Source of the DNA: Akkermansiaceae bacterium
GTDB taxonomy: Bacteria > Verrucomicrobiota > Verrucomicrobiia > Verrucomicrobiales > Akkermansiaceae
Reading direction: 5' to 3'
Assembly: GCA_025362955.1 (NCBI GenBank)
Contig: JANYFB010000098.1
Span: 1-35,059 of the forward strand
DNA length: 35,059 nucleotides
The position numbers and the translations under genes were made by a program. Positions 7,164-35,059 of the stretch are shown here, piece after piece. The notes beneath the pieces are model-generated. The model was not told the DNA's origin. It saw only the letters and a program-made list of their open reading frames with translations, and did no database searches. The first letter of the stretch is position 1. Every line of letters begins with the position of its first letter.

Positions 7164-7287
7164 TTTTTGAAATTCGGTAAAGGGGATAGGCTCAAAGCCA
7201 CGGGTCCGCAGGGATTTACGCGAATTTTTCACAGCCTCGCACGGCAATTTTATGAATAAGGCAGGATTTTCCGATGGATCTCAGCGC

Positions 7288-14189: not shown

Positions 14190-15296
14190 TTACACGCTGA
14201 ATTTTGAATGCCACTCCCCGTAAACCTTTGGCGAAATCTCAGATGGCTTGATCTCCGACCGTCCACCCCAGAATACGTTGGTGTAGGATATCGGAATTCC
14301 AACCGCTGCCAGGTGCTTGTCAATCGCCGCCTTGTGCTCTAAGACTCTCGGTTTTTCCGTGCCGTGCATCACGCCCATGATATTGACGTTGCCGAATTGT
14401 GGACCTCCCTCACGCCAATAGGCATGGGTCATGCAAAAATGTCGTCCCACCTCTCCGCCCGCCTCGATTTCCCGGCCCTTCGGAACAGCCCAATGGAACA
14501 GGCCGTTGAAACGGGTGACGCGCTCGCCGGTGGCCGATGGCTTGACGTGTTCGAGAAATGTCGAGAAACGCCCGATCACTTTTTTTGCGTTCAGTGTCTC
14601 CGCCACCTCACAAAAACGATCTAACGTGACACCAGCGATTTCCGCCCGCTTGGCCCAAGGATTTCCGCAGATTTCATCGAGTGCGAGTTCCTCCTTCAAG
14701 GCTAACAGCACTTGCCATTCTTGCTCCGTTAGATCGACTGCGGTGGTGGTCATCATGACTGCCGCTTCATCCGCCATATCGCCGGGTTCCAAAATTTTCC
14801 TCCGGGTATGGCCCACGCCGAGGGCGAAAACCCCGTGCGCCGGCATCAACAAGTATTCCGTCGCACCCGTGAGTCGGAGCAGCGCCGTGGCATGAAAATC
14901 CAGCGATTCTCCCACTGGAACCTTGAGCGTTGTCCACAGCCGATAACCGGAACCCGACACCTCTGTATCCGTGGAGCGGATTACCACATGCCCGGAAAAC
15001 GGATCTATCTGGGACATGAAATCAAACGCAGCGTTCAGCTTTTCCTCAGGCACCTTCCAAGCGACTAAGGCTCCGTGCGCCAGCTTTGTAGAAAGTAGAG
15101 TCTGCCGCACCCTGCGGACCACCCCGGCCTCGACCATCGCGCGGATTCGTTCGATCACGATTTCTAACGGCACCTCGGATTTTTCTGCGATGACATGAAA
15201 CGGCTGGCGTTGGAATCCGGCGATCAAGTCCTCGGAAATTGCCAAGATCGATGCGTTGACTGGGTCGGAATGCTCGACTGGGATGGAGGAATTCAT
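14190..15296 (-). CDS. two-module AsnC/Lrp-type protein resembling fused siroheme decarboxylase AhbA/AhbB
   Basis: A 368-residue protein made of two repeats of a helix-turn-helix plus RAM/AsnC-ligand fold. Module 1 (about 15-170) begins 'EDLIAGFQRQPFHVIAEKSE' and has 'EAGVVRRV' and 'GYRLWTTLKVP'. Module 2 (about 188-368) has 'LTEQEWQVLLALKEELALDE', 'RFNGLFHWAVP' and 'MTHAYWREG' (H291, Y293, R295), then 'GNVNIMGVMHG' and 'YTNVFWGGRSEIKPS'. These blocks parallel AhbA/AhbB (NirDLGH) siroheme decarboxylases, where matching modules bind siroheme and a His/Tyr/Arg set is conserved. Module 1 lacks an equivalent His-x-Tyr-x-Arg. No haem or siroheme gene is adjacent, so a regulator of the AsnC family remains possible. 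ATG 15296 is chosen; the longer frame to 15488 overlaps the upstream gene's end. Confidence 0.78.
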   Translation of the reverse strand: MNSSIPVEHSDPVNASILAISEDLIAGFQRQPFHVIAEKSEVPLEIVIERIRAMVEAGVVRRVRQTLLSTKLAHGALVAWKVPEEKLNAAFDFMSQIDPFSGHVVIRSTDTEVSGSGYRLWTTLKVPVGESLDFHATALLRLTGATEYLLMPAHGVFALGVGHTRRKILEPGDMADEAAVMMTTTAVDLTEQEWQVLLALKEELALDEICGNPWAKRAEIAGVTLDRFCEVAETLNAKKVIGRFSTFLEHVKPSATGERVTRFNGLFHWAVPKGREIEAGGEVGRHFCMTHAYWREGGPQFGNVNIMGVMHGTEKPRVLEHKAAIDKHLAAVGIPISYTNVFWGGRSEIKPSEISPKVYGEWHSKFSV

Positions 15297-15429
15297 AATT
15301 GGAAATGGATGCGGAGTTTGCCCGATACCGCTCGGATCAGCCGGCAATTTCAGGGACGAGATGCCTGAGGTAATCCAGAGCAGGCTCGCGATCAAGGATT
15401 CGTCCTTCAAGTTGGTCGGTTTGGGCCTA

Positions 15430-17622
15430 TCACAGCAAAGCGTGGAGTTCCTGCCAATCTCGAATGGTGAAATCCGGCGTGGAATCACCAGGACGGAGTG
15501 AGCATGAATGGCCTATAAATAGGACGGTGCGGAATCCGGCGCTTGCGGCGGGAAGAATGTCCTGAAGGGGATCGTTTCCAATGTACAGGGTTTCGGCGGG
15601 AGTGATGCCCCGGCCTGCGAGGCGGTCAGTTAGGATGGTGAAAAGTTCCGGCGAGGGCTTGGCGATGCGGTGCTGATAGGAAAGGAGGGTCAGCTCGGGG
15701 GCGAACAAATCCGCGATGGGACCGAGCGATGGCAGGGTGTTGCACTGAGCGTTTGATAGAAGGCCGAGCGAGATACCGGAGCGGGCGAGGCGCTGGATGA
15801 AATTTTCCGCGCCGGGCATCGGTTTGACAGGGTGCCATGCGCCCTCAAGAGCTTGAACAAGCGGGGTGATATCGTTGCCCGCCTCGATCTCGAGAATTTC
15901 CCGCCAGAGGGTGCGAAGGTCAATCTCCGGGAACGGCACGCCGGCGGCAGCATGATGGCGGAGGACTGCGGCGTGGAGTTCCGTGCTGGGAGAAACCGGC
16001 GGCGTGTGGCCGAACTGGCGGAGGATTTCCCGGAGAACGGGATCAATGAAGGGATCAGATGTCACCCCACCAGGCGAGGCAATGAGAAGGGTGCCGTAGA
16101 TGTCGAAGATCACAGCGCGAAACGCTCTCTTCGGAGCAGAATCCGATCGGAGGGAAGAGAGCAGGAAATGGAAATCCTCTGGCCGGAGGTGCGCAGCTAG
16201 AATGGCGGCGGGCGGGACGTGGCGGAGCGCTGAGATGGGAGCATTTAGTAATTGCCAATAAAGCGCGGTGATAGATTTCTGATAGGTTTCCGCTGAGTAA
16301 GGCGTGAGTTGATCGGGGGTAGCGGTAGGGTGGCGCTCGGGGAGGACCGTCGCCAGCCACTCAATTGCGGGTTGAGTGATATCGCCAGATTTCATCAGTG
16401 GAATCGCACGTTGGGACGGGTCCGCGAGGCGCTCGATGACGCCTTGCTGAAGTGGCTCCGGCAGATTCCCGAAATCGACGAGTCCGTTGTTTATCATGGC
16501 GGCGAGGGCCGCGCCGACCGGGTTGCCCGTGAGCGGTCGTCGATAAAGGCGATAGTCCCTTTGGAGGTCGAGGGTGAGGTGATCCCTCAGAATAGTGATG
16601 TCCACCCACTCGATGGGGATGAGGATGGCATCGTACAATCGCCCGGCCTGGATACCGTGCTGTGCGTGGTCCGCTGTGATGTGCGTGAGATTTCTGCCGA
16701 TGAGTGGCTTCCCTCGGGCGACGGCTTCGAGAAATGTTAGGCCGAATCCCTCGGAAACGGAGGTGGTGACGAAATGGGTGGCATGGCGGACCCAGGAATC
16801 GAAATCGGTCGCCGCACCGGGTTTCGGTGAGAAGTGATCCGCGACGCCGAAGCCGATTGCCAAGTGGTGTTTGTTAGCGAATCTTTGCCAGTTCTGATAG
16901 ATCGGAAGTGCTTCGCGATTTTCCGGCGCACGGCTGATGGCGACGCGGGTGCCAACGGGCGCTAGCATGGCGAGGAGAACGAGCTCGCCGATATTTTTCC
17001 GCCGGATGCCTCTCATTGGGGCGAAGAGAAGAGGCTCTACCGCAAAGTCGCCAAGGGGCGCGGAGGTAGAGTGGGGGATCGGGTTTGGGAGCAGGGTGGC
17101 GTTTTCGGGCGGGAGACCGGCGGCGATGAAGCAGTTGAGATCGCGGGAGTTGAGAAAGGCGTAGTGGATGCGGGAGGAAAATGGATAGAGCTTTTGGTAA
17201 TGTGCGATGAGAGGGTAGTTCGCAGGTCTGCCTTGTTCGGCGAGGTCGTGGATTTGGAGGATCAAGCGCTCGTTTTCCTCGGCGAGTTGGGAAATGACCT
17301 CGGGCATGAGGCAATTTTTTCCTAGGGAATGATTGTGGAAGTGCCAAATGTCCGGTGGTGCGCCGAGAGCGTCGATGGCGGCAAGACGGAGAGTTTTTGT
17401 TAGCTCTGTGGCGCTCTGGAGGCCAGGTGTGGTGAGGTAACCGAGGGCGGGGATGACGCGATGGGATAGGCCAGTAAAACGAGAGGCTTGTGGAAAGACG
17501 CACCAACCGCTCGATAGGATGACGTGGGGGACGCCGGAGACTGTTAGTGCGCAGGAAGCCCGCTCGATCACGCAGGTGACGCCGCCGGGATCGAGGTGGT
17601 AGTGGACGATGGCGACTCGCAT
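15430..17622 (-). CDS. fusion: GT-B glycosyltransferase (GT4-like) + HAD-superfamily hydrolase
   Basis: A 730-residue two-domain protein. Residues 1-380 look like a retaining GT-B glycosyltransferase: 'MRVAIVHYHLDPGGVTCVIE' with the glycine-rich start, 'DIWHFHNHSLGKN', 'LLFAPMRGIRRKN', and the EX7E donor motif 'SEGFGLTFLEAV' (E291, E299). Residues about 500-730 are a HAD domain: motif I 'VIFDIYGTLL' (D507, with Tyr 509 where phosphatases have Asp), motif II 'LGLLSNAQ' (S623), motif III Lys655 in 'IAKPSPELF', motif IV 'YIGNDPLQDIL' (D684, D688). The middle (390-495) is mostly helical and unrecognised. A glycosyltransferase joined to a HAD domain recalls sucrose-phosphate-synthase-like enzymes, but this HAD belongs to the IA/REG-2/dehalogenase type. 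Sugar acceptor unknown. It starts 11 bp after the GNAT gene. Confidence 0.85.
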   Translation of the reverse strand: MRVAIVHYHLDPGGVTCVIERASCALTVSGVPHVILSSGWCVFPQASRFTGLSHRVIPALGYLTTPGLQSATELTKTLRLAAIDALGAPPDIWHFHNHSLGKNCLMPEVISQLAEENERLILQIHDLAEQGRPANYPLIAHYQKLYPFSSRIHYAFLNSRDLNCFIAAGLPPENATLLPNPIPHSTSAPLGDFAVEPLLFAPMRGIRRKNIGELVLLAMLAPVGTRVAISRAPENREALPIYQNWQRFANKHHLAIGFGVADHFSPKPGAATDFDSWVRHATHFVTTSVSEGFGLTFLEAVARGKPLIGRNLTHITADHAQHGIQAGRLYDAILIPIEWVDITILRDHLTLDLQRDYRLYRRPLTGNPVGAALAAMINNGLVDFGNLPEPLQQGVIERLADPSQRAIPLMKSGDITQPAIEWLATVLPERHPTATPDQLTPYSAETYQKSITALYWQLLNAPISALRHVPPAAILAAHLRPEDFHFLLSSLRSDSAPKRAFRAVIFDIYGTLLIASPGGVTSDPFIDPVLREILRQFGHTPPVSPSTELHAAVLRHHAAAGVPFPEIDLRTLWREILEIEAGNDITPLVQALEGAWHPVKPMPGAENFIQRLARSGISLGLLSNAQCNTLPSLGPIADLFAPELTLLSYQHRIAKPSPELFTILTDRLAGRGITPAETLYIGNDPLQDILPAASAGFRTVLFIGHSCSLRPGDSTPDFTIRDWQELHALL

Positions 17623-21454: not shown

Positions 21455-22453
21455 TCATTTTTTAATAGCGGGTTTGCCCAAGGCTGTTGCGAGTCCATCA
21501 TATTCCGCTACGTTAAGTGGCAAGATTGATCCGTGGCGGAAAAGGAAAGGAAAACTAAAGTTCGGGCCATCCTTAAATTGCCCTGACGCCAGATCCTCGG
21601 TCACGTATGGCTGATAGCCTTTTCCTTGACTGTAAAGGTCCAGAACGAGGCACCAGATCGCGGGCTTACCGTCAGCGGCCGGTTTGAGCTGATAACACTC
21701 GGGACCTTCATACCCCTGCAACTTTGAAAGAGAAAACTGAGGTTTGTCGTGCCAAGGACCCATCAATTGGTCGCTGACCTCCATGGTGATCGCCTTGAAT
21801 TGCTCGTCCTTCGAGAAGCGGTAGTATTTGTTACCTTCGCGAACAATATCCGTGTCGATGACATGACCCGGTTTCTCAATATAAATGAACGGTACGCCGA
21901 AGGTCCGAAAATCCTTCGTTCTGGCGGCCCAGATGCGCTGTTTTGCGAACTTATCACTCCGATTGGTTGAAGCCCAATAAACCAAATAATCTTGAGTGGC
22001 TTCGTCATACACAGCCTCGGGAGCCCAAGTGCAACCTGCATCCGCAGCGGCCACGCGCACGAGCCTCGGCGGTGACCAATGCACCAAGTCCGTCGATTCC
22101 CATATCACGATGGATTTGCTTCCCGCCGTCTGTGCCTTTTTCCAGTCGTGGGTTAAATTAATCGAGAGATCCGTCGCCAGAATATAGAATGTTTTACCAT
22201 CGTGGGAGCGCAAAAGATACGGATCGCGGACGCCTTTGTCGCCAAGCTTGCTAACCAAAACCGGATCTCCGCCGTTCAACGCATCCCACTGGCGACCGTC
22301 CTTACTCAACGCGAAATAGATCTGCTCCGTCAGGGGAGATTTTTCACCCTTAAATGTCACAAAAAGATAGCCGCCGTCAGCTGCGAATGCAGAGACATGA
22401 GCGATGAGTGTTAACAAAATCGGTAAAAAATTTTTCAGGAAATATGGGGTCAT
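21455..22453 (-). CDS. exported glycoside hydrolase family 43 protein
   Basis: A 332-residue protein with a signal peptide (about 1-24, cleavage near SAFAAD). The five-bladed propeller motifs of a GH43 subgroup are visible: 'GGYLFVTFKGE' at the start, 'IYFALSKDGRQWDALNGG', 'GVRDPYLLRSHDGK' (D77), 'IVIWESTDLVHWSPPRLV', 'CTWAPEAVYDEATQDYLVYW', 'VIDTDIVREGNKYY' and 'GYEGPECYQL' (E249, the likely general acid). Members act on arabinosyl or xylosyl groups; with PL10 and CE12 genes beside it, arabinan or pectin side-chain trimming is the best guess. It is the last gene of the cluster and stands 136 bp from PL10, so it could have its own promoter. Confidence 0.9.
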   Translation of the reverse strand: MTPYFLKNFLPILLTLIAHVSAFAADGGYLFVTFKGEKSPLTEQIYFALSKDGRQWDALNGGDPVLVSKLGDKGVRDPYLLRSHDGKTFYILATDLSINLTHDWKKAQTAGSKSIVIWESTDLVHWSPPRLVRVAAADAGCTWAPEAVYDEATQDYLVYWASTNRSDKFAKQRIWAARTKDFRTFGVPFIYIEKPGHVIDTDIVREGNKYYRFSKDEQFKAITMEVSDQLMGPWHDKPQFSLSKLQGYEGPECYQLKPAADGKPAIWCLVLDLYSQGKGYQPYVTEDLASGQFKDGPNFSFPFLFRHGSILPLNVAEYDGLATALGKPAIKK

Positions 22454-22589: not shown

Positions 22590-23666
22590 TCACTTGGAGC
22601 GCTCGCCGCGAATGGATTCTTGCCATCGTGGATACTCTTGGTTCAAGAGCGGCTGTGGCCAGTTGTACAACCAACGGTATCCGTTCCGGCGTTCGTAGCC
22701 GATTTCGGCCAGTTCATGCTTTGCGACTCCATCGCGATCAGAGAAAATCGGCAAGTTGGTACCAATTTCGTAAAATCGGGCCCACAGTAGGGGAGCGGCG
22801 GGATCGGCGACCACTTGCCGGTCATTGCCTTTCGGGAACTTGGGATCGGAAATCTCGTCCACGCGGATTCCTTTAAGAGCCGCAACACGGAACCACGCAA
22901 CCGCCGATTCAACAGCAGTGATCACATCCTGGCCGGGATGTTCAACGCTCATCAATAGCCGGGTAATGCCGACCGACTCGGCCCCACTCAGCGAGACAAG
23001 CTCGAAGGCCCGGGCCGGACGGGGACTATAGTCGATCTCGTCATGCTGGGCGCACCATGCGGTCAATTTACCATTTACTCGGATCTGACACTTCAAGATG
23101 CAATCCAGGCCGCGCGTGAAGGCGGCGCGGGCCGCCTCTCTCCGTACGGTGTCCAAAAATACATAACTATTTGAAGTGTATAATTCCCGAAGGAAAATCA
23201 TTACGCGGACCATTGCATCATCATTGAAAGTGATATGCCGGTGGTATTGTTTGTCAGGCGGATAAAATTGTGGCCACCCCCCAGTGGGATACTGAGCCTT
23301 GAGTATATAATCCACTCCCATTTCGAACGCATGCTGGTATTGCTTGTCGTGGGTCGAATTGAAAATACGGGCTAGGAATCTCAACTCGTCCGTGGTCGCG
23401 TGGTTATCAAACGTAGGTTTGAGTTCTGAGCGATTGCCTTGGAAGGGTTTTGAAGTGGTATCGGTATTTTTCGGCCAACCGCCTAGTTCGGATTGGTAAG
23501 AAAGAATGTTGGAGGCTGTTTTTACGGCTTCAGGGCTGGCGAACCATGGCTCTGGATTTGCCAGAAATTTTCCGGTAACATCCCCAGCTTGCAACGGCCC
23601 AGATAGCAGGAGGACGAGCGCAATTCGCGATGTGAATTTCCTGACCGATGGAGCATTCGAAGTCAT
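22590..23666 (-). CDS. exported pectate lyase, family PL10
   Basis: A 358-residue protein with a signal peptide (ending near PLQAGD). All PL10 landmarks are visible in order: 'LGGWPKNTD', 'TFDNHATTDELRFLARIF', 'YPTGGWPQFYP', 'HITFNDDAMVRVMIFL', 'CILKCQIRVNGKLTAWCAQH' and the catalytic-region block 'DEIDYSPRPARAFELVSLSG' with the conserved arginine, ending 'GYRWLYNWPQPLL'. The family beta-eliminates polygalacturonate with calcium, giving unsaturated oligogalacturonides. The length is a single catalytic domain with no carbohydrate-binding module. This gene is the strongest indicator that the cluster targets pectin. It starts 18 bp after the CE12 gene, within one operon. Confidence 0.94.
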   Translation of the reverse strand: MTSNAPSVRKFTSRIALVLLLSGPLQAGDVTGKFLANPEPWFASPEAVKTASNILSYQSELGGWPKNTDTTSKPFQGNRSELKPTFDNHATTDELRFLARIFNSTHDKQYQHAFEMGVDYILKAQYPTGGWPQFYPPDKQYHRHITFNDDAMVRVMIFLRELYTSNSYVFLDTVRREAARAAFTRGLDCILKCQIRVNGKLTAWCAQHDEIDYSPRPARAFELVSLSGAESVGITRLLMSVEHPGQDVITAVESAVAWFRVAALKGIRVDEISDPKFPKGNDRQVVADPAAPLLWARFYEIGTNLPIFSDRDGVAKHELAEIGYERRNGYRWLYNWPQPLLNQEYPRWQESIRGERSK

Positions 23667-23684: not shown

Positions 23685-24914
23685 TTAGTTTCCAAGCGGT
23701 TTATCGGCCGACTTGACAGGGCTAACAGGCATTAGAAACGTGGCAACCGCATCAGGCTTTGATGGGGAAAAATCGCCGAAGTCATCTACAATGGATTCCG
23801 CCAATGGCAACTTTGCTTGTTTGATTCCTTCAATGATGCACTTGGCAAGCTCGTAGCTTCCATAATTGTTATGATGGGTTCCGTCTTGGAATGCCTTGGC
23901 CAAGTCCGCGCCAAGTGCATGATAGAAAACGCGGCTCATCGCGTGCAGATCGATCAACGCGCAATTTTGTTCTTTTGCCACGGCGATAACCGCATCGGGA
24001 TAACCGACCAGTGTATCATGATCCACGCCGCCTTTGCGCTCCATGGAAGTGACCAACACCGGCGTGCCTCCGAGTTCACGCGTGCGTGAAATAACCATTT
24101 TCAAATTGGTTTTATAGGTTTCTATCCTGTCCTCGCCCTTTTCCTTTTGGTCGTTGTGGCCGAATTGAACAAATAGATAATCGCCCTTTTTCATCTGGCT
24201 AAATACTTTATCAAACCGCTTGGCATGGAGGGAGCCACCAAGAGTCTCACCGGATTCCGCATGATTGGACACGGCAACTTCCGGTTTGAAAAAGCGTGGC
24301 AGCATTTGCCCCCAACTGTTCCATGGTTCCGCCGGTTGGTCGCACACTGTCGAGTCACCTAACACATACACAGTGGGGACATCGACCTTTTCGATTTTCA
24401 GGGCAGAGATGGTTGGATGATCCCCGTTGAATTCAAGGGTTAATTTTTCGTCCCAGTTCCAGAGTTCGGTAGTCATTTCGCGTTGCTTGAGAGACACACG
24501 ATTTTCTCCGGAAAATTTCGGGGTTCGCACGTTATTGATGAAGCTGCGGTCTTCCGATTTACCGGGAGCCGCATGAACTTTTTCCACCATCAGTCGGCGC
24601 AGTTCCGACTTCACTGTAGTTGTAGATTCGCCTGTTTTGTCTCCGAACAACACCCTAACCTTATAGTTTCCATCAGGCAGTTTGACGGAAAAATAAAAGG
24701 GCGCCGCACTGGTGATGGCCTGGTTACCTTCTGTCACTGTCGCGCCGGGTTCGAAGCCATAACCGGTCTGAGTGGAATAAATATCGGTTGGGGATACGCG
24801 TTTGGAACCCGCCATGCCTTTACCTCCGAAATCAAAATTAAAGGAGGTCTGAGCACACAGAAACGCACTACTGATTGCTAGAAATAGCGTGGAAAGATGA
24901 TATGTTTTTTTCAT
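23685..24914 (-). CDS. exported rhamnogalacturonan acetylesterase (CE12-like SGNH) with N-terminal beta domain
   Basis: A 409-residue protein: signal peptide (about 1-21), an N-terminal beta-sandwich (about 24-175, beginning 'FNFDFGGKGM' with 'YSVKLPDG'-like strands; reads 'FYFSVKLPDGNYKVRVLFGD', similar to the galactose-binding or malectin-like region of this family) and an SGNH hydrolase (about 180-400). The catalytic set is complete: S188 in 'VYVLGDSTVCD', G in 'HAESGETLGG', N254 in 'FVQFGHNDQ', and D344/H347 in 'DGTHHNNYGS'. The role is removal of acetyl esters from rhamnogalacturonan I, opening it to lyases. It is the first of two CE12-like genes here, separated by 4 bp, and differs from its neighbour by the extra domain and an intact triad. 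Confidence 0.9.
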   Translation of the reverse strand: MKKTYHLSTLFLAISSAFLCAQTSFNFDFGGKGMAGSKRVSPTDIYSTQTGYGFEPGATVTEGNQAITSAAPFYFSVKLPDGNYKVRVLFGDKTGESTTTVKSELRRLMVEKVHAAPGKSEDRSFINNVRTPKFSGENRVSLKQREMTTELWNWDEKLTLEFNGDHPTISALKIEKVDVPTVYVLGDSTVCDQPAEPWNSWGQMLPRFFKPEVAVSNHAESGETLGGSLHAKRFDKVFSQMKKGDYLFVQFGHNDQKEKGEDRIETYKTNLKMVISRTRELGGTPVLVTSMERKGGVDHDTLVGYPDAVIAVAKEQNCALIDLHAMSRVFYHALGADLAKAFQDGTHHNNYGSYELAKCIIEGIKQAKLPLAESIVDDFGDFSPSKPDAVATFLMPVSPVKSADKPLGN

Positions 24915-24918
24915 TGAA

Positions 24919-25860
24919 TTACTCAGTTTGGTTTTTGTCGGGAGCGGGCTGACTCAAATCCGCTGGGGCAATATTTGTTGCCTTGTCAGAAAAGAATTTA
25001 GACAGTGGATTATCTTTGAGCCCTTTGATTGCGGCGATGACACAAGCGGCGTTTGTCTCCGCGCCTGCTTGGCTGGTATGGGGACCGGCACCGACGATGA
25101 ACAATGGGTTCACTTTTTCCTGCCCGAGTTCATCATACTTGCGTGCGATGATTTCATTGATATCGAGAAATGCCACGGATTCAGATTTGGCGACTTCTCC
25201 AGCCCAACCTGCATAGTCATTCTTGTTGCGGGCGGCGCTGCCATTTTTCCAATCATTATGGGGAATAAGTGAACACACCATCGGCGTCGCGTGTTTCGCC
25301 TTCACCTCGGCAATAATGGCTTTTTCATACCAACCAAACGAATGAACAATCTCGTGTTGTTGGGTAATGAGATTGTCAATTTCCTGAGTTTCGTCGCCCG
25401 CACCTTTGATCGTGCCACGGGCGCGGCTTGCGTCATTAACTGCAGAGGAGTCGTTGTGGCCGAACTGCATGATGACAAAATCGCCGGGTTTGATTATATT
25501 CAGCACACGAGGCCATTGGTCGCGATAGTAGGTGCGGCTGCTTGTGCCGCCTAACGCACGATTCACAACATTAATGCGGTTCGTGTCAAAGAACGGAGCA
25601 AGAAAGTCGCCCCAGCCCCATTGTCCACCGGTTCCAGTGCCTTGACCATTTCTCACGGTAGAATCGCCGATGAGGAACAAGGACGGTAGTTTGGGATCGG
25701 CAGGTTCAGATGCTGTCCGAGAGCCGGTAGCGTGGGGATGTTCCGCCTCGCTTGCCGGCTGAGCATCAACGGAAACCGCTAGCAATCCCACGCCGATCAC
25801 TGCGGCCATGAGATTAAAAAAGCGGCTTGAGTCGTTCACGATGCTGGTTTGACAATTCAT
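24919..25860 (-). CDS. exported CE12-like rhamnogalacturonan acetylesterase homologue lacking the triad aspartate
   Basis: A 313-residue protein with a signal peptide (about 1-33) and one SGNH domain. Block I 'LFLIGDSTVRNGQGTGTGGQ' (S67), 'RALGGTSSRTYY' and block III 'FVIMQFGHNDSSAVND' (N136) match CE12. The block V region reads 'FIVGAGPHTSQAGAETNAA': histidine H261 is kept, but the Asp expected three residues earlier (DxxH, as in DHTHTS) is Ala258 (codon at 25087-25089). The rest of the domain is well preserved, so this is not random decay. The gene sits 4 bp before the intact CE12 gene and 2 bp after the GH2 gene, in the middle of the operon. Confidence 0.9.
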   Translation of the reverse strand: MNCQTSIVNDSSRFFNLMAAVIGVGLLAVSVDAQPASEAEHPHATGSRTASEPADPKLPSLFLIGDSTVRNGQGTGTGGQWGWGDFLAPFFDTNRINVVNRALGGTSSRTYYRDQWPRVLNIIKPGDFVIMQFGHNDSSAVNDASRARGTIKGAGDETQEIDNLITQQHEIVHSFGWYEKAIIAEVKAKHATPMVCSLIPHNDWKNGSAARNKNDYAGWAGEVAKSESVAFLDINEIIARKYDELGQEKVNPLFIVGAGPHTSQAGAETNAACVIAAIKGLKDNPLSKFFSDKATNIAPADLSQPAPDKNQTE

Positions 25861-25862
25861 TA

Positions 25863-28424
25863 TTATAACCTGTCCTTAGTCGGAACCATCTTGGATTCGA
25901 CTTTGATCGTGGCGGTTCCCAAACCTCCGCGTGAGGCGGTGAGGGTGATGGGCCCGGCGGTTGAAATGGAGCGGATGGCGACGCGGTTGATTCCACATTC
26001 GGTGTCGAGCCAGAGATTGTTGATAGATTGGGTTTTGCCGCTGTTATAGCCGCCGCGCCAGATGGCTGGTCCCTCCAGTTTGAAGTCCACGCGGCCCTCG
26101 TCGGTAGGACAACGCCGTCCTTGCGCATCCACAACTTCCACATCGAAGAGTGCCACATCCGACCCATCGGCTAACAACCCGTCGGGCGAAATATGCGGGG
26201 TGAGTTTCACGGTTTTGGCCTCACCTGCCGTTTCGATTTCTTCATGTGCGACGATCGTTCCATTGGATTTCGCAACCGCACTGACTTTTCCAGCTTCAAA
26301 TTTAATTTCAGGAAAAGCAAAGATATAGCCATTCGTCGGCGTTTTCACGCTGCCTTTGGATTTGCCATTTACGAAAAATTCCACTGCGTCGCAATGGTTT
26401 GCCGCGACGTAAACTGTTTTGACTGTGTTAGGAGGATAATTCCAGTGACCAATGATGTGAATGTCCGGCGCGTCGTTCTGCATCACGCGATAGACATAAT
26501 AGGCCTGCTTCGGAAGCCGCACGGAATCCACCTTTCCGCTGACACGGCAGACTTCGCTGCTATCTTGGCGACCGTCGGCGTTAGAGTCCGACCAATAAAT
26601 CGAAGCATAGCCCGCCCACTTTGAATGGGCCGCGTCCGTGTTTGAGATCTTATTACGTGCGTATGCATCGTAGCGCTCCGCTGCGGCAATACAGAAGGTT
26701 TCCGAGTTCCAGGAGTAGGTGTCGTTAGGCCCCTTTTTGAAACCCATGTGGGGCGGAGAAAAGTCATCCCAAAAGCGCCGGGCGGCCTCATCGCGGAAAT
26801 CCTCCGTCTCGATGAAAGGCGCGCGGTCGCGGCGCTCGTCACTGTAGGCGCGGAACTGATCGGACGGCCCTTTACGACCATCTTTTTTATCGTCCTGACC
26901 AATCATCACACCGAAGTACTCGGCGATGGGTGTGGCTGTAGGTTCGTTTAAAGTGCGGCAACCCATCACGCGTCCGCCTTTGGGATCGAGTTCTTTCCGT
27001 AATTCCACCATTTGCGTCAGGTGTTCGGTGGTGACGCCGTTGTTGCCCGCTTCCCATAATAAAATGCTCGGGTTGTTGCGGAAATAAATCATTGAGTCCC
27101 GCATGACTTCCATGCGTTGCTCCCACTGGCGGCTGGCGACAGCGGGTTGCAGGCGCTTATCAAGGGTCGGGTCGCCCTCTTTGTCACCTGCGGGACAGGC
27201 TTGGATGATTCCCGCCTTGTCACAGGCACGAACGTCCACGGCCTGCGGTGAGATATGCATCCAGCGGATATAGTTTGCGTGCGTGCTGCGGATGAACTGC
27301 GCGTTGAAGTCATGAATCCAATCAGGAAATGCCTCGCCAAGGCCCGCCCATTCGTTGGAAGAGCGTTGTGCGTAACCGGTCAGCCAGACAAATTTATCAT
27401 TTAGATAAACACCACCCGTACCCACGCCGCCCTTAAACTCTGCTTTGCGGAAACCGGTATGGATTTTCTGCATATCCACGACCTTATCGTCCACGGTGAG
27501 CATGGAGTAAACATTATAAAGATAGGGCTGTGTATCGCTCCAAAATTTTGCGTCGGTCAGTTTGGCAGTGGCAGAAAAGATTTCAGTTTGACCACTCACC
27601 AAGTCGAGAGGATCGCTTTCAATTTTCGCGCAGACCTTTCCATCCGCATCCACCACGACGGCGGTTAGGGTGATCGATTGCTGGTCGCCGGACTCGTTAC
27701 GAACTTGGGCCTCAATATTCACGTCACAGGTTTTATCCTTGATCTGAAAATTGGATGGATAGATATAGGTGCCCGTCGTTTTCAAGTTTTCAAAAAGCGG
27801 CAGTGTCTGATAGACCTTGCCTGTCAGGTGCAGCCGAATGTCGTGATTGAGCCCGCCGTAATTCGGATTGAAGGCGCGACCCATCCATTCGAAACCAGCA
27901 CCGCTTGCTTGTTCGGAGTAGTCGTTGCTGTTGTCCACTTTCACTGCGATGACATTGTCTGCATCGCCAAAATTCACGAAGTCCGTCAGGTCGAGCCCGC
28001 AAGCGGTGATGCCGTTTTCAAACCTGCCGACCAACTTGCCGTTTACCCAAAAGCGCCCGGCTTGTTTCAGTCCTTCAAATTCCAAAAAGGCCTTCCCGCC
28101 CTTTCCGCCCGCAGGGAGTTTAAAATGTTTGCGATACCAAGTGATGCCTGAAAATGCCTTTCGGTCGCCTCCACTGTGGCTAATGATGTCGTTATAGGAA
28201 TCAACGTCATTGTATGTATGCGGAGCGCTGACATTGCTCCATTTTGAGTCGTTGAAGGCGATTTGGTTGGCATCCGCCACGTCTTCTCGAATGAATTTCC
28301 AGCCGGAATTAAAGTTATAACTTATGCGAGGGGAGGGCGGTAAAGCAGAGGTCGGCGCTGCCGCGTAGAGCTGATTTGCGCCTGAGAATAGTATGGTCGC
28401 GGCGACTAGAGAGTGAAAGTGCAT
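25863..28424 (-). CDS. exported glycoside hydrolase family 2 protein with non-canonical acid/base site
   Basis: An 853-residue protein with a signal peptide (about 1-22). It has the GH2 order: sugar-binding jelly roll (about 35-200, 'WYRKHFKLPAG', 'FWVNGKLVGRFENG'), immunoglobulin-like domain (about 220-330), TIM barrel (about 335-600) and further beta domains, including a big-Ig-like C-terminus ('GLLADGSDVALFDVEVVDAQG'). The usual acid/base motif WSxGNE reads 'SILLWEAGNNGV' (W457-N462), with Asn in place of the Glu. A possible nucleophile is E539 in 'APFIETEDFRDE'. The change suggests a divergent GH2 subfamily using E458 or another residue. Substrate unknown; galactosyl or uronosyl side groups of pectin are plausible from context. 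It starts 9 bp after the fucosidase stop. Confidence 0.9.
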   Translation of the reverse strand: MHFHSLVAATILFSGANQLYAAAPTSALPPSPRISYNFNSGWKFIREDVADANQIAFNDSKWSNVSAPHTYNDVDSYNDIISHSGGDRKAFSGITWYRKHFKLPAGGKGGKAFLEFEGLKQAGRFWVNGKLVGRFENGITACGLDLTDFVNFGDADNVIAVKVDNSNDYSEQASGAGFEWMGRAFNPNYGGLNHDIRLHLTGKVYQTLPLFENLKTTGTYIYPSNFQIKDKTCDVNIEAQVRNESGDQQSITLTAVVVDADGKVCAKIESDPLDLVSGQTEIFSATAKLTDAKFWSDTQPYLYNVYSMLTVDDKVVDMQKIHTGFRKAEFKGGVGTGGVYLNDKFVWLTGYAQRSSNEWAGLGEAFPDWIHDFNAQFIRSTHANYIRWMHISPQAVDVRACDKAGIIQACPAGDKEGDPTLDKRLQPAVASRQWEQRMEVMRDSMIYFRNNPSILLWEAGNNGVTTEHLTQMVELRKELDPKGGRVMGCRTLNEPTATPIAEYFGVMIGQDDKKDGRKGPSDQFRAYSDERRDRAPFIETEDFRDEAARRFWDDFSPPHMGFKKGPNDTYSWNSETFCIAAAERYDAYARNKISNTDAAHSKWAGYASIYWSDSNADGRQDSSEVCRVSGKVDSVRLPKQAYYVYRVMQNDAPDIHIIGHWNYPPNTVKTVYVAANHCDAVEFFVNGKSKGSVKTPTNGYIFAFPEIKFEAGKVSAVAKSNGTIVAHEEIETAGEAKTVKLTPHISPDGLLADGSDVALFDVEVVDAQGRRCPTDEGRVDFKLEGPAIWRGGYNSGKTQSINNLWLDTECGINRVAIRSISTAGPITLTASRGGLGTATIKVESKMVPTKDRL

Positions 28425-28433
28425 GAAGGTTTT

Positions 28434-30047
28434 TTACTGGGGATTTCCGGAAAGAGTCGCGGTGGCAGGATTAGTTTTCGCGCCGATGATCTTAAGCGAG
28501 TATGCGTATTTGCAGGGAGCGGTGCCGGGGAGTCTTACCTTCAATCCGGTGGAGTCTTGGGTGAACTGTAATTTTGTGTTGGAGCCCACCAGCGTGACAG
28601 CGCTAATTTTCCCGGAGGATGCACCATCGGCCAGGGAGGCGATGACCAGTTCTCCTGTAGGCCAATTACCTACGATAATGGCATAAAGTGCGTCACCCTT
28701 GACGGTGAAATGAAGGTTCATTTTTCCCCGTCCGCCTTCACTAGCTTGGGTCCAGTTATGAGTGTCGTAGATGGCTTCTCCGTTTACGCCGAGCCATTGG
28801 CCGATTTCGAGTAGGGTAGTTTGTTGTTCTTGTGGAAAAGTCCCGTCCGCCTTGGGTGAAAGATTAAGTAGCAATGTGCCATTCTTGCTTACTGTATCCA
28901 CAAGCTTGCCAATGATTGAACCCGGGCTGCTGACGTGCATATCGCTGGTATAACCCCAAGTGCTGCCGATAGGCTCGTCAACCTGCCATGCCCCGGTGCG
29001 GATACCGGAAGGCGAACGGCCACCGATTTTTTCGAAGTCAATGATCGAACCAATGGTCTCCGTATTTTTATCAGTCGGTGAATAGGCAGCCTTCTTGGTG
29101 CTGATAGAAACATCCTTGCCCCAGCTTTTCGCGCGGTTGTAGTAGTAGGTGGCGAGTTGGAGCTTGAGTGGATCAAGAAAGCGTTGATCCACCCCGTTGT
29201 CGAACCATAGCATATCGGGTTGGTAACTATCGATTAGCTCGACGTTGCGTGCATACCAGTTGAGGAGAAACTTTTTGCAGGCCTCATCGCTGCGGTCGGC
29301 GACATTATAGAAATCTGCCCACTTTGGATCGTAGAGGTCGGCGTGGTTGGCTTTAAGGATGTTCGTCAAGTCTCCGGGCGGATTGATGAATTGGAAATTT
29401 TCAATACCGTGATTTGATACACCGAACTTGAGTCCTTGTTTCCGAACGGCCTTCGCGAGATCGCCTATCAAATCGCGCTTGGGCCCCATTTGCTTGGCAT
29501 TGAAGGGTGTCACAGCGCTGTCCCACAGCGCGAAATTTTCGTGATGCTGCGCGGTTGGGATTACGAACTTCGCTCCTGATTTTTTAAAGAGTTCGGCCCA
29601 AGCATCGGGATCGAATTTCTCCTGCTTAAAGAGCGGGATGAAATCCTTGTAACCAAATTTATCCTGCGGGCCGAAGTGTTCCTCGTGCCATTTCCGATCC
29701 GCGCCATACATGTGTTTTTCATACCACTCGTTATGATGCGCGGGCACGGAATAGAGCCCCCAATGCATGAAGAGGCCGAATTTCGCGCCATTGAACCATT
29801 GCGGAACCTGATAGTTTTTCTTGAGCGATTCCCATGTTGGCTGGAAGGGGCCGGGCGGAAGTTTCGTGGGAATCCGTGCAACGGCGGCTTCCACAACTTC
29901 GAGACGGGTTTCCGGTGCCATGTCGAAGCCTTGGGAATTTCCACCATCGGCCAGCGGATTGGCAGTTTGTGCAAATGCCGGGAATGATGAAACCCATGCG
30001 ACGATGGTGAAACAAGGTAAGTGAATGAATAATCGTTTTCCGTTCAT
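28434..30047 (-). CDS. exported alpha-L-fucosidase, family GH29
   Basis: A 537-residue protein with a signal peptide (about 1-27, ending FPAFAQ). GH29 motifs are clear: 'WFNGAKFGLFMHWGLYSVPA', 'EWYEKHMYG', 'FKKSGAKFVIPTAQHHENFA' with the paired histidines, 'PKRDLIGDLAKAVRKQGLKFG' split around RDL, and the nucleophile D283 in 'DMLWFDNGVD'. 'LVDTVSKNGTLLLNLSPKADG' closes the barrel, followed by a C-terminal beta domain (about 430-537). It should release alpha-L-fucose (or a close relative such as methylfucose or L-galactose) from side chains. Spacing of 9 bp to the genes on each side puts it in the operon. Confidence 0.94.
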   Translation of the reverse strand: MNGKRLFIHLPCFTIVAWVSSFPAFAQTANPLADGGNSQGFDMAPETRLEVVEAAVARIPTKLPPGPFQPTWESLKKNYQVPQWFNGAKFGLFMHWGLYSVPAHHNEWYEKHMYGADRKWHEEHFGPQDKFGYKDFIPLFKQEKFDPDAWAELFKKSGAKFVIPTAQHHENFALWDSAVTPFNAKQMGPKRDLIGDLAKAVRKQGLKFGVSNHGIENFQFINPPGDLTNILKANHADLYDPKWADFYNVADRSDEACKKFLLNWYARNVELIDSYQPDMLWFDNGVDQRFLDPLKLQLATYYYNRAKSWGKDVSISTKKAAYSPTDKNTETIGSIIDFEKIGGRSPSGIRTGAWQVDEPIGSTWGYTSDMHVSSPGSIIGKLVDTVSKNGTLLLNLSPKADGTFPQEQQTTLLEIGQWLGVNGEAIYDTHNWTQASEGGRGKMNLHFTVKGDALYAIIVGNWPTGELVIASLADGASSGKISAVTLVGSNTKLQFTQDSTGLKVRLPGTAPCKYAYSLKIIGAKTNPATATLSGNPQ

Positions 30048-30056
30048 AATTCAAAG

Positions 30057-31547
30057 TTAGTTGGCAGGCCGGGTGTCGGTGCAGAATTGCGCGGCGGGCA
30101 GACCGGCGGCATTGAAGAGATTACAGCCGTCGGGGAAATTCACCCAAGCATAGCGTGCGGCTATTGGAGTGGATACTTGCGGGTTACTCACGACCACTGA
30201 GTCGCCGTCGATTTTAGCCTCGGCAGGGAGGAAATTCATGTCCGCACCGGCAATTTCAAACCATTTGAGAGGTCCACCGTCCTTGGCCACGAGCTCGCCG
30301 TTAGTATGGGTGAATTCCACGCGGATGGAGTTACCCTCGATTTTCATGGAATCATACACAGGACCGGAAAATTCGATTTTCTTTTCATAGACATTGGCCA
30401 TTGCAATGCGTGCCAGTCGGTTGCCCACATCCTGTTTGTTATGCGGATGGACGTTTTTCGCCTCGCCGATGTCGGTAGTGACAGCCATTCCGGTGTTGGG
30501 AAGCGAGAGGACCGAGGCTTGGGCTTGGCGGACGAGCGGACTATTGCTGGCAGCTTCTTGTCCGGCGAGTTGCACGATATAGAATGGAAAATTTCCCTCA
30601 CCCCAAAGCTGTCTCCAATCGTGGATGAGGGTTGATTGCACTTGTGGATAGAGTGCGACTCCCGTGCTACCACCCACAATGGATTCTCCCTGATACCAGA
30701 TGACACCGCGAATCGCAAAAGGGATGACAGGACGGATCATGCCGTTGAACAAGACCGTGGGGTTGTGTTGGTCCTGTGAGGGATCCTTCGAGCCGAATTT
30801 GACGTTAGGAGTCGTTGACGCCACGAGGGGCGGGGGATTCGTGAGAAAATCATGTACCGCCGTGTCAAAACGATTCAGCATCGGATTCAACATCGGATCC
30901 GCAGTCAGTGCCTCGCGACGAATCCATGCTTCTGCGGTGCTTGCACCAAAAGCCAATGTGACAATCCCGACAGGGGTCTGGATTTCTTTCTGCAAATCGC
31001 GGGCGAAGAAATAGCCGACTGCGGAAAAAGATGGAGCCGTTTCCGGACTACAGACTTTCCATTCCCCACCGACCGAAGATTGTGGCGTGTAGGACTTGCT
31101 AGCAGTGCCGGTGAACATACGGATGAGTGGAAATTTCGCGGCGGCGATTTCTTCATCCTCATTCACAACACCTGCGAAATATTTGACTTTTTTCGACATG
31201 GAAAAGTCCATGTTTGACTGTCCTGAAGCCAGCCAGACTTCTCCCACTAACACGTCGTCCAAAATCAACGGCTGTTCTGTGTTTGAACCGGTAATCGTGA
31301 GGTCCCTGCTATCCGCCGAGGTTTTCAAGGGTTCGAGATCCGCACGCCATTCGCCATTCGCGGCGGCTTTCACGGAAACTTTCTGTCCGGCAAATGCCAC
31401 AGTAACTTTTTCATCCGCATCCGCAGTGCCCCATATCGGAACCTTCATGTCGCGTTGCAAAACCATGTGGCAGGTGAAGGGGCTGGCAAGCTTGACTTCC
31501 GCCATCACGGACCCACTAAGTATTAATGTTAGAATGAGGGCTTTCAT
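30057..31547 (-). CDS. exported sialate O-acetylesterase-type SGNH esterase
   Basis: A 496-residue protein with a short signal peptide (MKALILTLILSGSVMAE). The N-terminal beta part has 'MVLQRDMKVPIWGTADADEK', and the SASA-type hydrolase core has the nucleophile S111 in 'VWLASGQSNMDFSMS', 'FSAVGYFFARDLQKE', 'FGASTAEAWI', 'GVIWYQGESIVGG' and the late block 'TTDIGEAKNVHPHNKQDVG' with Asp/His. The family removes O-acetyl groups from sialic acids or from plant polysaccharides. In a pectin/fucose context deacetylation of plant glycan is more likely than sialate. The start codon directly follows the GH2 stop (no gap), indicating coupled expression. Confidence 0.92.
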   Translation of the reverse strand: MKALILTLILSGSVMAEVKLASPFTCHMVLQRDMKVPIWGTADADEKVTVAFAGQKVSVKAAANGEWRADLEPLKTSADSRDLTITGSNTEQPLILDDVLVGEVWLASGQSNMDFSMSKKVKYFAGVVNEDEEIAAAKFPLIRMFTGTASKSYTPQSSVGGEWKVCSPETAPSFSAVGYFFARDLQKEIQTPVGIVTLAFGASTAEAWIRREALTADPMLNPMLNRFDTAVHDFLTNPPPLVASTTPNVKFGSKDPSQDQHNPTVLFNGMIRPVIPFAIRGVIWYQGESIVGGSTGVALYPQVQSTLIHDWRQLWGEGNFPFYIVQLAGQEAASNSPLVRQAQASVLSLPNTGMAVTTDIGEAKNVHPHNKQDVGNRLARIAMANVYEKKIEFSGPVYDSMKIEGNSIRVEFTHTNGELVAKDGGPLKWFEIAGADMNFLPAEAKIDGDSVVVSNPQVSTPIAARYAWVNFPDGCNLFNAAGLPAAQFCTDTRPAN

Positions 31548-33893
31548 CTATTTTCTAGTTGCGGAGGTGATGGTCACCGAACCAGCCGTCAATCCGGGAG
31601 AAGATGCTGTTAGGATAATGTCACCGGTCATCCCGGTTGCTTTCACGAATGCGACGCACTCGCCCTGAAAAGCGTGACGAGAGGGAGCTTGGAAGAGTTC
31701 ATGGCTCGCGTTATCACCATTGTCCACTGCGGCAATGACACCGGAAGCAGATACTTTGAAATCGATCAAATCACTCGCACGAGGAATCTCAACGCCTTTG
31801 TCATCGACGATTTTGGCACGCACAATTGCCACCTCATTCCAGTCAGCAGAGAGTTTCTTAGTTTCCGTCAGCAGCATAATTTTCGCCGGTTTTCCGGCGG
31901 TTTGCAATTCTTCGGTGGCGACGATTCGTCCGTCGTTTTTAGCAACGGCCTTCAAGGTTCCCGGAGCGAAGGAAACCTTCCAAGTGCGGGCTGATGCGTC
32001 TGCGTTAAGAGGTTTCATCCCGAGTGATTTGCCATTGAGGAATAATTCCACCTCCTTGGCGTTAGAGTATATTTCCACCTGCTCGTCGTGGGTTTGCAGG
32101 TTCTGTGGCGTCCAATCGGAGAACAATACCTGAGTGTGGCGTTCTTCCGCACCGTAACCGGGATCAGCAGGCATTTCATCGGTGTTGGAAAGGCGGCGGG
32201 CGATGGCGACCATCGGCACGTCGCTCCACCAGCTCTGGCGTTCGCGAGCAAGCGGGCGGATCGTGCCGGTGCGGTCGAGCAATCCAGAGCCGTGACCGAT
32301 GATCGGCCAGTGGCGAGATTCACCCAGGTAATCGATGCCCGTCCATAGAAACTGCCCGGCGTAAGGCGGATTGTCGCGGAGCGCGAGCCACGCCTTGCGG
32401 TCGTGCCCATTTTCCGTACCGACGATTTTTCGCGTGGGTTTCTGGACGTGGGCGGCAATGATTTCCTGCTCCCGATAGTTCTGGCCGACGACATCTAGAA
32501 TATCCGCTAGGCCATTGTCGTAGTCATGGCTGACGTTTGGTCGAAACAATGCTTGGGTAACGGGTCGGGTGGGATCGGCGGCGTGCGCGACTTCCACCAG
32601 ACCTGCTAGAATGGGCTTGGCGCTTTCCGGATGTGGGGTGTCGTGAATTTCATTTCCGACGCTGTAAAGAATGATGCACGCATGGTTTCGATCACGAAGA
32701 ATCGCATCCCGCTCGTCGATCTTTGACCATTCCTTGAAAAATAAATGATAGTCGGAAGGATTTTTTGCCACCGTCCAGCAGTCAAACATTTCATCCATCA
32801 CGACAAATCCCATGCGGTCGCACAGGTCTAAAAAGTCTGGAGAGGGTGGGGTATGGGCAGTGCGGATCGCATTCACGCCGACGGTTTTCAGGTTTTTCAA
32901 GCGATCTTCCCAAATGGAAAGCGGAACTGCGGCACCGAATGCGCCACCGTCCGCGTGCAGACAGACGCCCTTGAGTTTGAAATTTTTACCATTCAACCAA
33001 AACCCGGTTTCTGGCTCAAATCGTGCGGAACGGACTCCTAACAATGTAGTATGGGTATCGACGACTCCGGTTCCGGCGCGGAGCTCGCTGACGACCGTGT
33101 AAAGGTGCGGGGCATCCAAATCCCATAACTGTGGAGAGGCGAGAATGAGTTGCTGTGCGACATTTTCATTGCCGCTGGCTGCTAGATTTACGCCGGTTTC
33201 CATCATCCCGGCGACTTTCTTGTCAGCAGAGAGGAGCGTGGTCCTCACAATCACTTTCCCGGTGACTTGGGTTTGATTTGTGATGGCAGTAGAGATTTTC
33301 ACCGTGGCCTTCTGAGGTGAAACATCCGGGGTGGAAACGAAAACTCCGTTTTCAATGATATGCACCGGATGGGTCACTAACAGCCGAACGTGCCGGTAAA
33401 TTCCCGCGCCAGAATACCAGCGGGAGGCAGGTTGGGCTGAGGTATCAGTGCGGACGGCGATGACGTTTTCCCCGCTTGGCTTGAGGTGGGATGTTAGGTC
33501 ATAACTGAAGCCGACATAGCCAGTCGGGCGGTGGCCGAGGTGGAATCCGTTGATCCAGACGTCGCTGTTTTGCATCACGCCGTCGAATTGAATTGCGACG
33601 CTCCCGGGATTGGCGGGGAGTGTGAAATGCTTTCGATACCATGCGATGCCGCTGGGCATGAAAGCGCCCGCGCCGCCGGTGGGGTTGGTTTCAGCGAACG
33701 GTCCTTCGATGCTCCAGTCGTGCGGCAGCTTCACGGATGCCCACTTTGTTTCATTTTGTGATATCGCCTCCGCTCCCGCTTGCTCTCCGCGGAAAAATTT
33801 CCAGTCTTGTTCAAAATCCGTGATTTCTGGCGCCGCACACAAAAGCGGTGCCGCAGATAGCATCGCTGCTAGAATACGCATGGTATCATTCAT
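31548..33893 (-). CDS. exported glycoside hydrolase family 2 beta-galactosidase-like enzyme
   Basis: A 781-residue protein with a signal peptide (about 1-20). It shows standard GH2 domains: jelly roll (about 25-175, 'VKLPHDWSIEGPF', 'WYRKHFTLP', 'VWINGFHLGHRPTGYVGF'), Ig-like domain, TIM barrel (about 295-600, 'LKGVCLHADGGAFGAA', 'VNAIRTAHTPPSPDFLDLCD'), a DUF4982-like region and a C-terminal Ig-like domain. Acid/base E415 is in 'ILYSVGNEIHDT' and the nucleophile E494 in 'RKIVGTENGHD', both canonical, unlike the other GH2 of this cluster. Galactosidase activity is the likely role. It is the first gene of the operon; the leader (33894-33979) holds its promoter. GGGA about 5 bp before the ATG is the only near-Shine-Dalgarno I saw in the cluster. 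Confidence 0.93.
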   Translation of the reverse strand: MNDTMRILAAMLSAAPLLCAAPEITDFEQDWKFFRGEQAGAEAISQNETKWASVKLPHDWSIEGPFAETNPTGGAGAFMPSGIAWYRKHFTLPANPGSVAIQFDGVMQNSDVWINGFHLGHRPTGYVGFSYDLTSHLKPSGENVIAVRTDTSAQPASRWYSGAGIYRHVRLLVTHPVHIIENGVFVSTPDVSPQKATVKISTAITNQTQVTGKVIVRTTLLSADKKVAGMMETGVNLAASGNENVAQQLILASPQLWDLDAPHLYTVVSELRAGTGVVDTHTTLLGVRSARFEPETGFWLNGKNFKLKGVCLHADGGAFGAAVPLSIWEDRLKNLKTVGVNAIRTAHTPPSPDFLDLCDRMGFVVMDEMFDCWTVAKNPSDYHLFFKEWSKIDERDAILRDRNHACIILYSVGNEIHDTPHPESAKPILAGLVEVAHAADPTRPVTQALFRPNVSHDYDNGLADILDVVGQNYREQEIIAAHVQKPTRKIVGTENGHDRKAWLALRDNPPYAGQFLWTGIDYLGESRHWPIIGHGSGLLDRTGTIRPLARERQSWWSDVPMVAIARRLSNTDEMPADPGYGAEERHTQVLFSDWTPQNLQTHDEQVEIYSNAKEVELFLNGKSLGMKPLNADASARTWKVSFAPGTLKAVAKNDGRIVATEELQTAGKPAKIMLLTETKKLSADWNEVAIVRAKIVDDKGVEIPRASDLIDFKVSASGVIAAVDNGDNASHELFQAPSRHAFQGECVAFVKATGMTGDIILTASSPGLTAGSVTITSATRK

Positions 33894-34030: not shown

Positions 34031-35059
34031 TTAAGGTTGCTTGGTCACAATGAGACGGGCGAACAGATCCGTAACACCCACCGGAATGGGGATGGTGACG
34101 GTAACGGTTTCGGTAGTGCCATTGTCCACCACTCCGGTCATCCCGGCGGTGGCGGTGGTCCAGCTTCCAATATCGAGAGTTGAAGAATACTCGACCGTTG
34201 GAATAAAGCCTGCGGTAACGGCCTCTTTCAAGCGGGTGTAAGTGAAGATCAGGTTTGTCCCCGACGTCACCGAGGTGGGCAGGTTGGATTGTGCACCGTT
34301 GGCAGGACTGCTCGAGAGGAGATATTCCACCATGTTTGCTACGCCGTCGGAATCAGGGTCGGCAAGGTGTCCAATGATCGCAGGATTGGTTGAGCCGGGA
34401 TAGAAGCCCAAGATCCAGTTCTCATAAGGATCGGAACCGACCTGCAGTTTTCCAGTTCCGGTGAAGAGTGTGCTGGTGTGAGCGGCCCCGGAAGTGGGTG
34501 AGCCCCAAGTCCCGGTTAATTGCTGAACTCCGTCGATGAAGAGCTTGGCCACTGTGTCGATGCCGACGTATGGTAAGTCCAATACCGTGTTGGTTGTAAG
34601 TAGGACACTCGAAGTGTCTGCTAGAGATGTCGCTGTCGGCAAGCTCAGCGTGCCGCCTAGGACAGTGGTATCTCCGGTGTAAGTGGGAGCGACCGAAAGA
34701 ACCATCGTTCCCACGCCGGACTTGGTGAGTCCGCTCGCTACGGGAGCAAAAGGTGTCACCGCACCTGGGAAGTCGGCCAAGGGAACAGAAACCGTGAGAT
34801 CGGTTGCCACGCTGCTAGTTATATCTGGGACGTTAAACGTCGTGGAGTTGCCAGCCACCACGTCACCGACGTTGATCACGGAGTTTGCCGCTGCGGTTTT
34901 TGTAATGATCGAAGCAACCGTGCCGCCGATTGTGACGGTTCCTTTAAGTCCAAAGGCGCCGAAGTTAGTATTGATCGAACCACCGTCAGCTCGTAACTCG
35001 CCGCCATTGATTTTGAGATTCCAAGTCGCGTTGAAACTGCCGTTGCTGGTCACCAGACC
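34031..35059 (-). CDS. autotransporter-associated beta-strand-repeat surface protein, C-terminal part
   Basis: The frame is open to the right edge, so only the last 342 residues or so are seen; these proteins often exceed 1000 residues. A complete PF12951-type repeat is visible: 'GLTKSGVGTMVLSVAPTYTG' followed by DTTVLGGTLSL, with a degenerate partner before it ('LKINGGELRADGGSI'). After 'LFTGTGKLQVG' comes the Verrucomicrobiota-type tail: 'YENWILGFYPG', 'ADPDSDGVANMVEYLL' (calcium-binding-like DxDxDG), then a beta-rich end finishing 'DLFARLIVTKQP'. There is no PEP-CTERM motif and no outer-membrane barrel, so attachment is unclear. The Ser/Thr/Gly-rich, lysine-poor composition fits an exposed adhesin. 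It is followed by a strong terminator. Confidence 0.85.
   Translation of the reverse strand, partial: GLVTSNGSFNATWNLKINGGELRADGGSINTNFGAFGLKGTVTIGGTVASIITKTAAANSVINVGDVVAGNSTTFNVPDITSSVATDLTVSVPLADFPGAVTPFAPVASGLTKSGVGTMVLSVAPTYTGDTTVLGGTLSLPTATSLADTSSVLLTTNTVLDLPYVGIDTVAKLFIDGVQQLTGTWGSPTSGAAHTSTLFTGTGKLQVGSDPYENWILGFYPGSTNPAIIGHLADPDSDGVANMVEYLLSSSPANGAQSNLPTSVTSGTNLIFTYTRLKEAVTAGFIPTVEYSSTLDIGSWTTATAGMTGVVDNGTTETVTVTIPIPVGVTDLFARLIVTKQP

Follow-up and report, generated by a model that had tools for sequence, protein, structure and literature searches.

One GH2 protein encoded in the window (the whole analysed stretch of 35,059 nucleotides from an Akkermansiaceae bacterium) carries asparagine at the position usually held by the acid/base glutamate of the family. 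It is reasonably likely that this protein is a secreted, retaining enzyme of subfamily GH2_21 with E541 as its nucleophile, in which the acid/base role has moved from position 462 to E416, and that it cuts terminal beta-linked uronic acid. In the proposed mechanism, the enzyme would most likely take a terminal beta-linked uronic acid of the GlcA type off a glycan that is perhaps pectic. E541 would act as nucleophile in a retaining GH2 mechanism, and the acid/base role would pass from residue 462 of loop 4 to E416 of the neighbouring loop 3, so that position 462 would be free to vary. The replacement of the acid/base Glu by Asn is a true observation, and it has a published explanation in PMC12243196.

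The protein and its active-site positions

The positions on which the argument turns are the following.

25863-28424, minus strand: GH2 protein, GH2_21-like, 853 amino acids, no internal stop
27264-27266, minus strand: R387, conserved Arg of barrel strand 2
27177-27179, minus strand: codon GAG, E416 in loop 3, proposed substitute acid/base
27039-27056, minus strand: residues 457-462 (WEAGNN motif), where barrel strand 4 ends and in loop 4
27051-27053, minus strand: E458, invariant Glu
27039-27041, minus strand: codon AAC, N462, usual acid/base position
26802-26804, minus strand: E541, catalytic nucleophile by alignment
26793-26795, minus strand: R544, putative carboxylate-binding residue
26787-26789, minus strand: E546, invariant in the 118 listed subfamily members
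31548-33893, minus strand: second GH2 (Pfam), canonical GNE, internal comparator

The 853-residue protein has an N-terminus that, judged by eye, resembles a secretion signal, and its Pfam matches to PF02837, PF00703 and PF02836 (the GH2 sugar-binding, middle and barrel domains) exceed the cut-offs. The usual Asn-Glu acid/base motif of GH2 in loop 4 is absent, N461-N462 standing in its place. An earlier note on this DNA had pointed to the motif, and on re-reading the open reading frame WEAGNN was indeed found at residues 457-462, with N462 encoded by AAC at 27039-27041, two base changes away from GAA or GAG; the locus was right, the span given for the motif (27035-27055) lying a few bases off the actual 27039-27056. 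The second GH2 of the cluster does carry the canonical GNE, as had been said. Canonical GH2s such as this one share with the window protein the domain order, the nucleophile, the Arg of strand 2, the His of loop 2 and Asn461, but retain Glu at 462 and in most cases carry Trp at the position of E416.

Relatives and comparison set

Relatives were sought in 145 genomes from the host's family, which yielded, besides weaker GH2 matches, five proteins 38-44% identical to the window protein, with E, E, A, R and H at residue 462. For the contig scan the best 80 of 573 confirmed relatives were used as loci, and residue frequencies at 462 are therefore no census. The titles of these 80 listed loci include Verrucomicrobiota, Bacteroidota, Planctomycetota, Acidobacteriota, Firmicutes and Pseudomonadota, the nearest among the matches listed being records whose titles read Limisphaerales or Verrucomicrobia subdivision 3, with identities of about 80%. 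Two more searches gave matches at E 1e-100 in 25 of 387 and 6 of 239 genomes, the window's own counted. With identical segments merged and open frames shorter than 400 amino acids excluded, all searches together provided 157 distinct GH2 open frames: 118 members of the subfamily, partial proteins among them, one excluded fragment (L116) and 38 other GH2s from the fetched loci, 26 of which came out of loci L001-L038.

Residue 462 across the subfamily

The earlier note had suggested a GH2 subfamily without the usual acid/base Glu, and the sampled relatives agree with this: Glu is missing at position 462 in 83 of the 118 listed members. The residues found there are Glu (35), Asn (33), Thr (15), Lys (12), Gln (9), Ala (5), Ser (3), Arg (2), His (2), Asp (1) and Tyr (1). 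In the comparison set, all 38 GH2s outside the subfamily have Glu at this position, preceded by Asn. In the tree, Glu at 462 is confined to one clade of 60 rows (35/60), and the other 58 subfamily rows have none. Homologues with Glu at 462, which the same note had named as something that would refute its reading, do exist (35 of the 118 listed), all of them in that one clade, to which the window protein does not belong. The inner clade that contains the window protein (34 rows) has Asn in 15, Thr in 14, Ala in three, Gln in one and Ser in one, and no Glu. These clade counts are taken from the drawn tree, which was computed with FastTree only, with column 462 omitted, and carries a long-branch warning. 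In the tree alignment, two of the eight outgroup rows (L022 and L032) are shifted to Asn at 462, where a second alignment places Glu.

With 29 state changes on the tree, column 462 ranks 36 of 259 scored columns (residues 330-624), and it therefore acts like a variable position, unlike a catalytic one. R387, H390, E416, E458, N461, E541, R544 and E546 show zero changes; together with D414, R437 and R549 they are invariant in the 118 listed rows. We tentatively suggest, at a little under even confidence, that the acid/base role moved once, at the root of the subfamily, from loop 4 to loop 3 as a Trp/Glu exchange, that all members use the loop-3 Glu, and that Glu462 was retained or regained as a non-essential residue. 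In the 35 listed members that keep Glu at 462, the residue could still work there.

At three loci (L052, L053 and L059) two or three subfamily genes lie close together, with Thr in some and Ala in one at position 462 in each, duplicates that have diverged at the old acid/base site.

Relationship to 6HPD and to subfamily GH2_21

The AlphaFold2 model of the 853-residue protein has a mean pLDDT of 90.9 and a pTM of 0.92. Its best structural match is 6HPD (Z 44.5, 1.8 A over 776 residues; next entry Z 37.5), an entry titled 'The structure of a beta-glucuronidase from glycoside hydrolase family 2', which is also the closest solved structure by sequence (E 5.8e-179; next chain 8.1e-52). We take 6HPD to be T2KN75, the P17_GH2 of the ulvan pathway of Formosa agariphila, an identity that fits both its Trp and the title of the entry. 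The two proteins share the fold (38% identity), the nucleophile Glu, the loop-3 Glu and the strand-4 Glu, and in both the acid/base Glu is replaced, by Trp in 6HPD and by Asn462 in the window protein. With its Glu in loop 3 and its Trp in loop 4, 6HPD shows the reverse of most other GH2s compared. It differs from the window protein in that its chain (990 residues) extends past the window protein's end and in having Ser at the position of Asp414.

A 2025 paper (PMC12243196) splits GH2 into 23 subfamilies and reports some that depart from the Asn-Glu motif, which is thus not universal. For GH2_21 it describes beta-glucuronidase activity, naming one characterised beta-glucuronidase and discussing T2KN75; the acid/base Glu is Trp in the characterised beta-glucuronidase and often Lys, Arg or Asn elsewhere, and another highly conserved Glu (E402 of T2KN75) is proposed as the substitute. 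Both the Trp replacement and the hypothesis of a substitute are credited there to a 2019 paper on the ulvan pathway. The same paper describes GH2_19, in some members of which NE is replaced by TV, NA or NQ; this different GH2 group of furanosidases likewise loses the acid/base Glu. PMC8511951 lists P17_GH2 among ulvan-degrading enzymes, PMC8360166 notes that GlcA side chains have been reported on ulvan rhamnose, and passages of PMC9549685 and PMC7953866 contained nothing decisive. Among the papers listed in the literature searches, none besides PMC12243196 seemed from its title to deal with the subfamily, and we do not claim that the argument for E416 or the Trp/Glu exchange is unpublished.

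By its likeness to 6HPD, the window protein would belong to GH2_21. If this assignment is right, the subfamily as described in PMC12243196 already explains WEAGN(N), an outcome that the earlier note had listed as one that would undo its reading. E416 aligns with E411 of 6HPD, and the equivalent of E458 is residue 443. E402 of T2KN75 most likely corresponds to E411 of 6HPD and hence to E416, since the numbering is then shifted by only 9; correspondence to residue 443 is disfavoured because, with a shift of 41, the protein would begin only beyond the first strand residues of the GH2 fold.

Which glutamate could replace the acid/base

On comparison of the invariant residues, the E416 column was found to set the subfamily apart: it is Glu in 118/118 listed members as against 0/38 other GH2s, which have Trp there in 25 cases and Trp at 415 or 416 in 35. 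The E546 column is also Glu in all 118 listed members, and in one of the 38 other GH2s. According to the AlphaFold2 model, E416 lies five residues past barrel strand 3 (407-411) and residue 462 in the loop after strand 4 (454-458), the loops bearing the two adjoin, and E546 comes after the strand-7 nucleophile. The general acid is expected across the sugar from the nucleophile, which would favour E416. A profile alignment to the genome's own LacZ-type GH2 placed a gap in the loop-3 stretch and so gives E416 no definite counterpart in LacZ. D414 beside E416 is likewise invariant in the 118 listed members, but is Ser in 6HPD. The window protein belongs to a group in which residue 462 varies while E416, E458, N461, E541, R544 and E546 do not, and we infer E416 of loop 3 to be the general acid/base, the substitute that we favour. 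The shifted catalytic residue envisaged by the earlier note is, in this sense, the best explanation, with E416 fitting the role.

That note had itself looked to E458, the Glu of WEAGN with which barrel strand 4 ends, and to E539. E541, the second Glu of IETE, and not E539, occupies the nucleophile column, since this column is Glu in 118/118 listed members and 38/38 other GH2s. E458 is an unlikely substitute. It is invariant in 118/118 listed members, has a Glu as its counterpart in 6HPD and lies only four residues before 462; however, Glu also occurs there in five of the 38 other GH2s, all five with Asn-Glu, so that it is not specific to the loss of the acid/base, and its position inside strand 4 (454-458) suggests that the side chain probably lies deeper in the barrel than that of loop residue 462. 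E416 fits better. It is quite unlikely that the subfamily does without a dedicated enzyme acid, with catalysis relying, for example, on help from the substrate or on a leaving group that departs readily, and with no role for the invariant Glu residues other than to shape the site. Tolerance of Lys, Arg, Thr, Ala and Asn at 462 among the 118 listed members would agree with such an arrangement, but an invariant, subfamily-specific E416 beside loop 4 is the simpler explanation.

R544 is present in 118/118 listed members and in 0/38 other GH2s, where His (14) and Ser (14) are found. In LacZ, His540, near O6 of galactose, has the same spacing after the nucleophile. Placed three residues past E541 with this spacing, R544 may by analogy bind the carboxylate of the uronic acid.

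Selection on the genes

Twelve gene pairs were picked by hand for dN/dS; two were saturated, and the other ten gave values of 0.04-0.29, rough ratios because several dS values exceed 1. The window gene gave 0.06 against L039 and 0.04 against L042. Two sister pairs differ by Glu against Lys at 462, in each case through one base of the codon: L071/L100 (GAA vs AAA) with a dN/dS of 0.05 and L075/L082 (GAG vs AAG) with 0.13. The top value, 0.29, belongs to a paralogue-like pair with Ala and Thr at this position (L053, L062). The genes tested look to be maintained under purifying selection whichever residue they encode at 462.

These results bear on the proposal of the earlier note that the protein might only bind sugar. 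The absence of the textbook acid/base would suit a non-catalytic GH2, but we consider it very improbable: the nucleophile E541, the strand-2 Arg R387, the loop-2 His H390 and N461 are all kept, in 118/118 listed members, the window gene is under purifying selection against its two near relatives, and PMC12243196 describes as a beta-glucuronidase one member of GH2_21 that lacks the Glu. That a canonical enzyme was altered by an isolated mutation or by a sequencing error is refuted, in keeping with the earlier claim of no sequencing slip, by GNN in 13 of the 14 relatives about 70% or more identical (GNT in the other, L049) and by Glu in 0/34 inner-clade rows, and the same 13 relatives together with purifying selection in the tested pairs rule out a sequencing error or a pseudogene.

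Gene neighbourhood and possible substrate

The gene lies in a minus-strand cluster which runs, from the second GH2 (GNE), through SASA, the GH29-type fucosidase, the GH2 with GNN, two GDSL genes and the pectate lyase to a GH43-like gene.

30057-31547, minus strand: SASA-type carbohydrate acetylesterase
28434-30047, minus strand: alpha-L-fucosidase, GH29-type (Pfam Alpha_L_fucos)
24919-25860, minus strand: GDSL/SGNH esterase
23685-24914, minus strand: GDSL/SGNH esterase
22590-23666, minus strand: pectate lyase
21455-22453, minus strand: GH43-like (Pfam GH43 below and GH32N above cut-off; NCBIfam alpha-arabinofuranosidase below)

An open frame at 34031-35053, adjoining the glycosidase cluster, matches an autotransporter-type beta-strand repeat.

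A conserved operon was rejected as a general rule: among 28 inner-clade loci, several of them short, and with matches between the two GH2s excluded, only L042 kept four other window-gene homologues (both GDSL, SASA and the GH2), and six more kept one. At L042:6159-16855 the GH2 (GNE), GH2 (GNN), SASA and GDSL genes occur at 58-79% identity in a partly changed order, and no match to the GH29 or the pectate lyase was found in this locus.

Across the 80 loci, some pectin-type neighbours are met repeatedly. The neighbours of the 52 listed outer loci include GDSL (17), SusC (13), GH28 (11), GH43 (11, largest cluster), GH39 (8), PL11 rhamnogalacturonan lyase (7), GH115 (7), GH88/105 (6) and GH106 (4), and those of the 28 listed inner loci GH28 (4), GH106 (3), SASA (3), GDSL (2), GH29 (2), PL11 (1) and GH115 (1). 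A labelled carbohydrate-active neighbour is present in 12 of the 28 listed inner loci and absent from 16, some loci being short. Since each label comes from one scanned representative of its neighbour cluster, the counts are without control loci and only 12/28 inner loci are labelled, the pectin context is only suggestive. The neighbourhood of the window gene, with its pectate lyase, differs from the known system (6HPD, T2KN75, P17_GH2), which is that of the ulvan pathway. The protein is probably an exo-beta-glucuronidase, perhaps acting on pectin-type glycans; a pectic, rhamnogalacturonan-like substrate is only a guess.

Probable horizontal transfer

Among the matches listed, the GH2 gene at 25863-28424 is 77-80% identical to Limisphaerales-type genes (L039-L043), and its best relative inside the searched host-family genomes reaches 44%. 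For a housekeeping-type gene of the same contig, acyl-ACP ligase-like (5013-7247), identity is 69-76% in five genomes from the host's own genus and only 37-42% in the five that hold L039-L043. As the ligase-like gene is close to its own genus and the GH2 gene to Limisphaerales, the contig fits the genome, and horizontal exchange of the GH2 gene between distant lineages is probable. One record titled Caulobacteraceae (L066) holds a partial gene that the tree separates by zero distance from the Limisphaerales gene of L039, and is perhaps a misbinned contig. Elsewhere in the window, the frame at 14190-15488 shows partial matches to both subunits of siroheme decarboxylase, AhbA and AhbB, in one chain, below the curated cut-offs.

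Implications

What this analysis adds to the published explanation is how far the substitution extends, where it falls on the tree, how specific E416 is relative to E458, and a possible context of pectin type. GH2 proteins without Asn-Glu should neither be discarded as dead nor annotated as beta-galactosidases. For many members, the neighbouring genes give a hint of pectin-type glycans in addition to ulvan. The subfamily can be regarded as a natural experiment on the relocation of a catalytic acid: its related enzymes differ at the old site (Glu, Lys, Asn, Thr or Trp) and share a single unchanging Glu at the possible new one, which makes the question directly testable.
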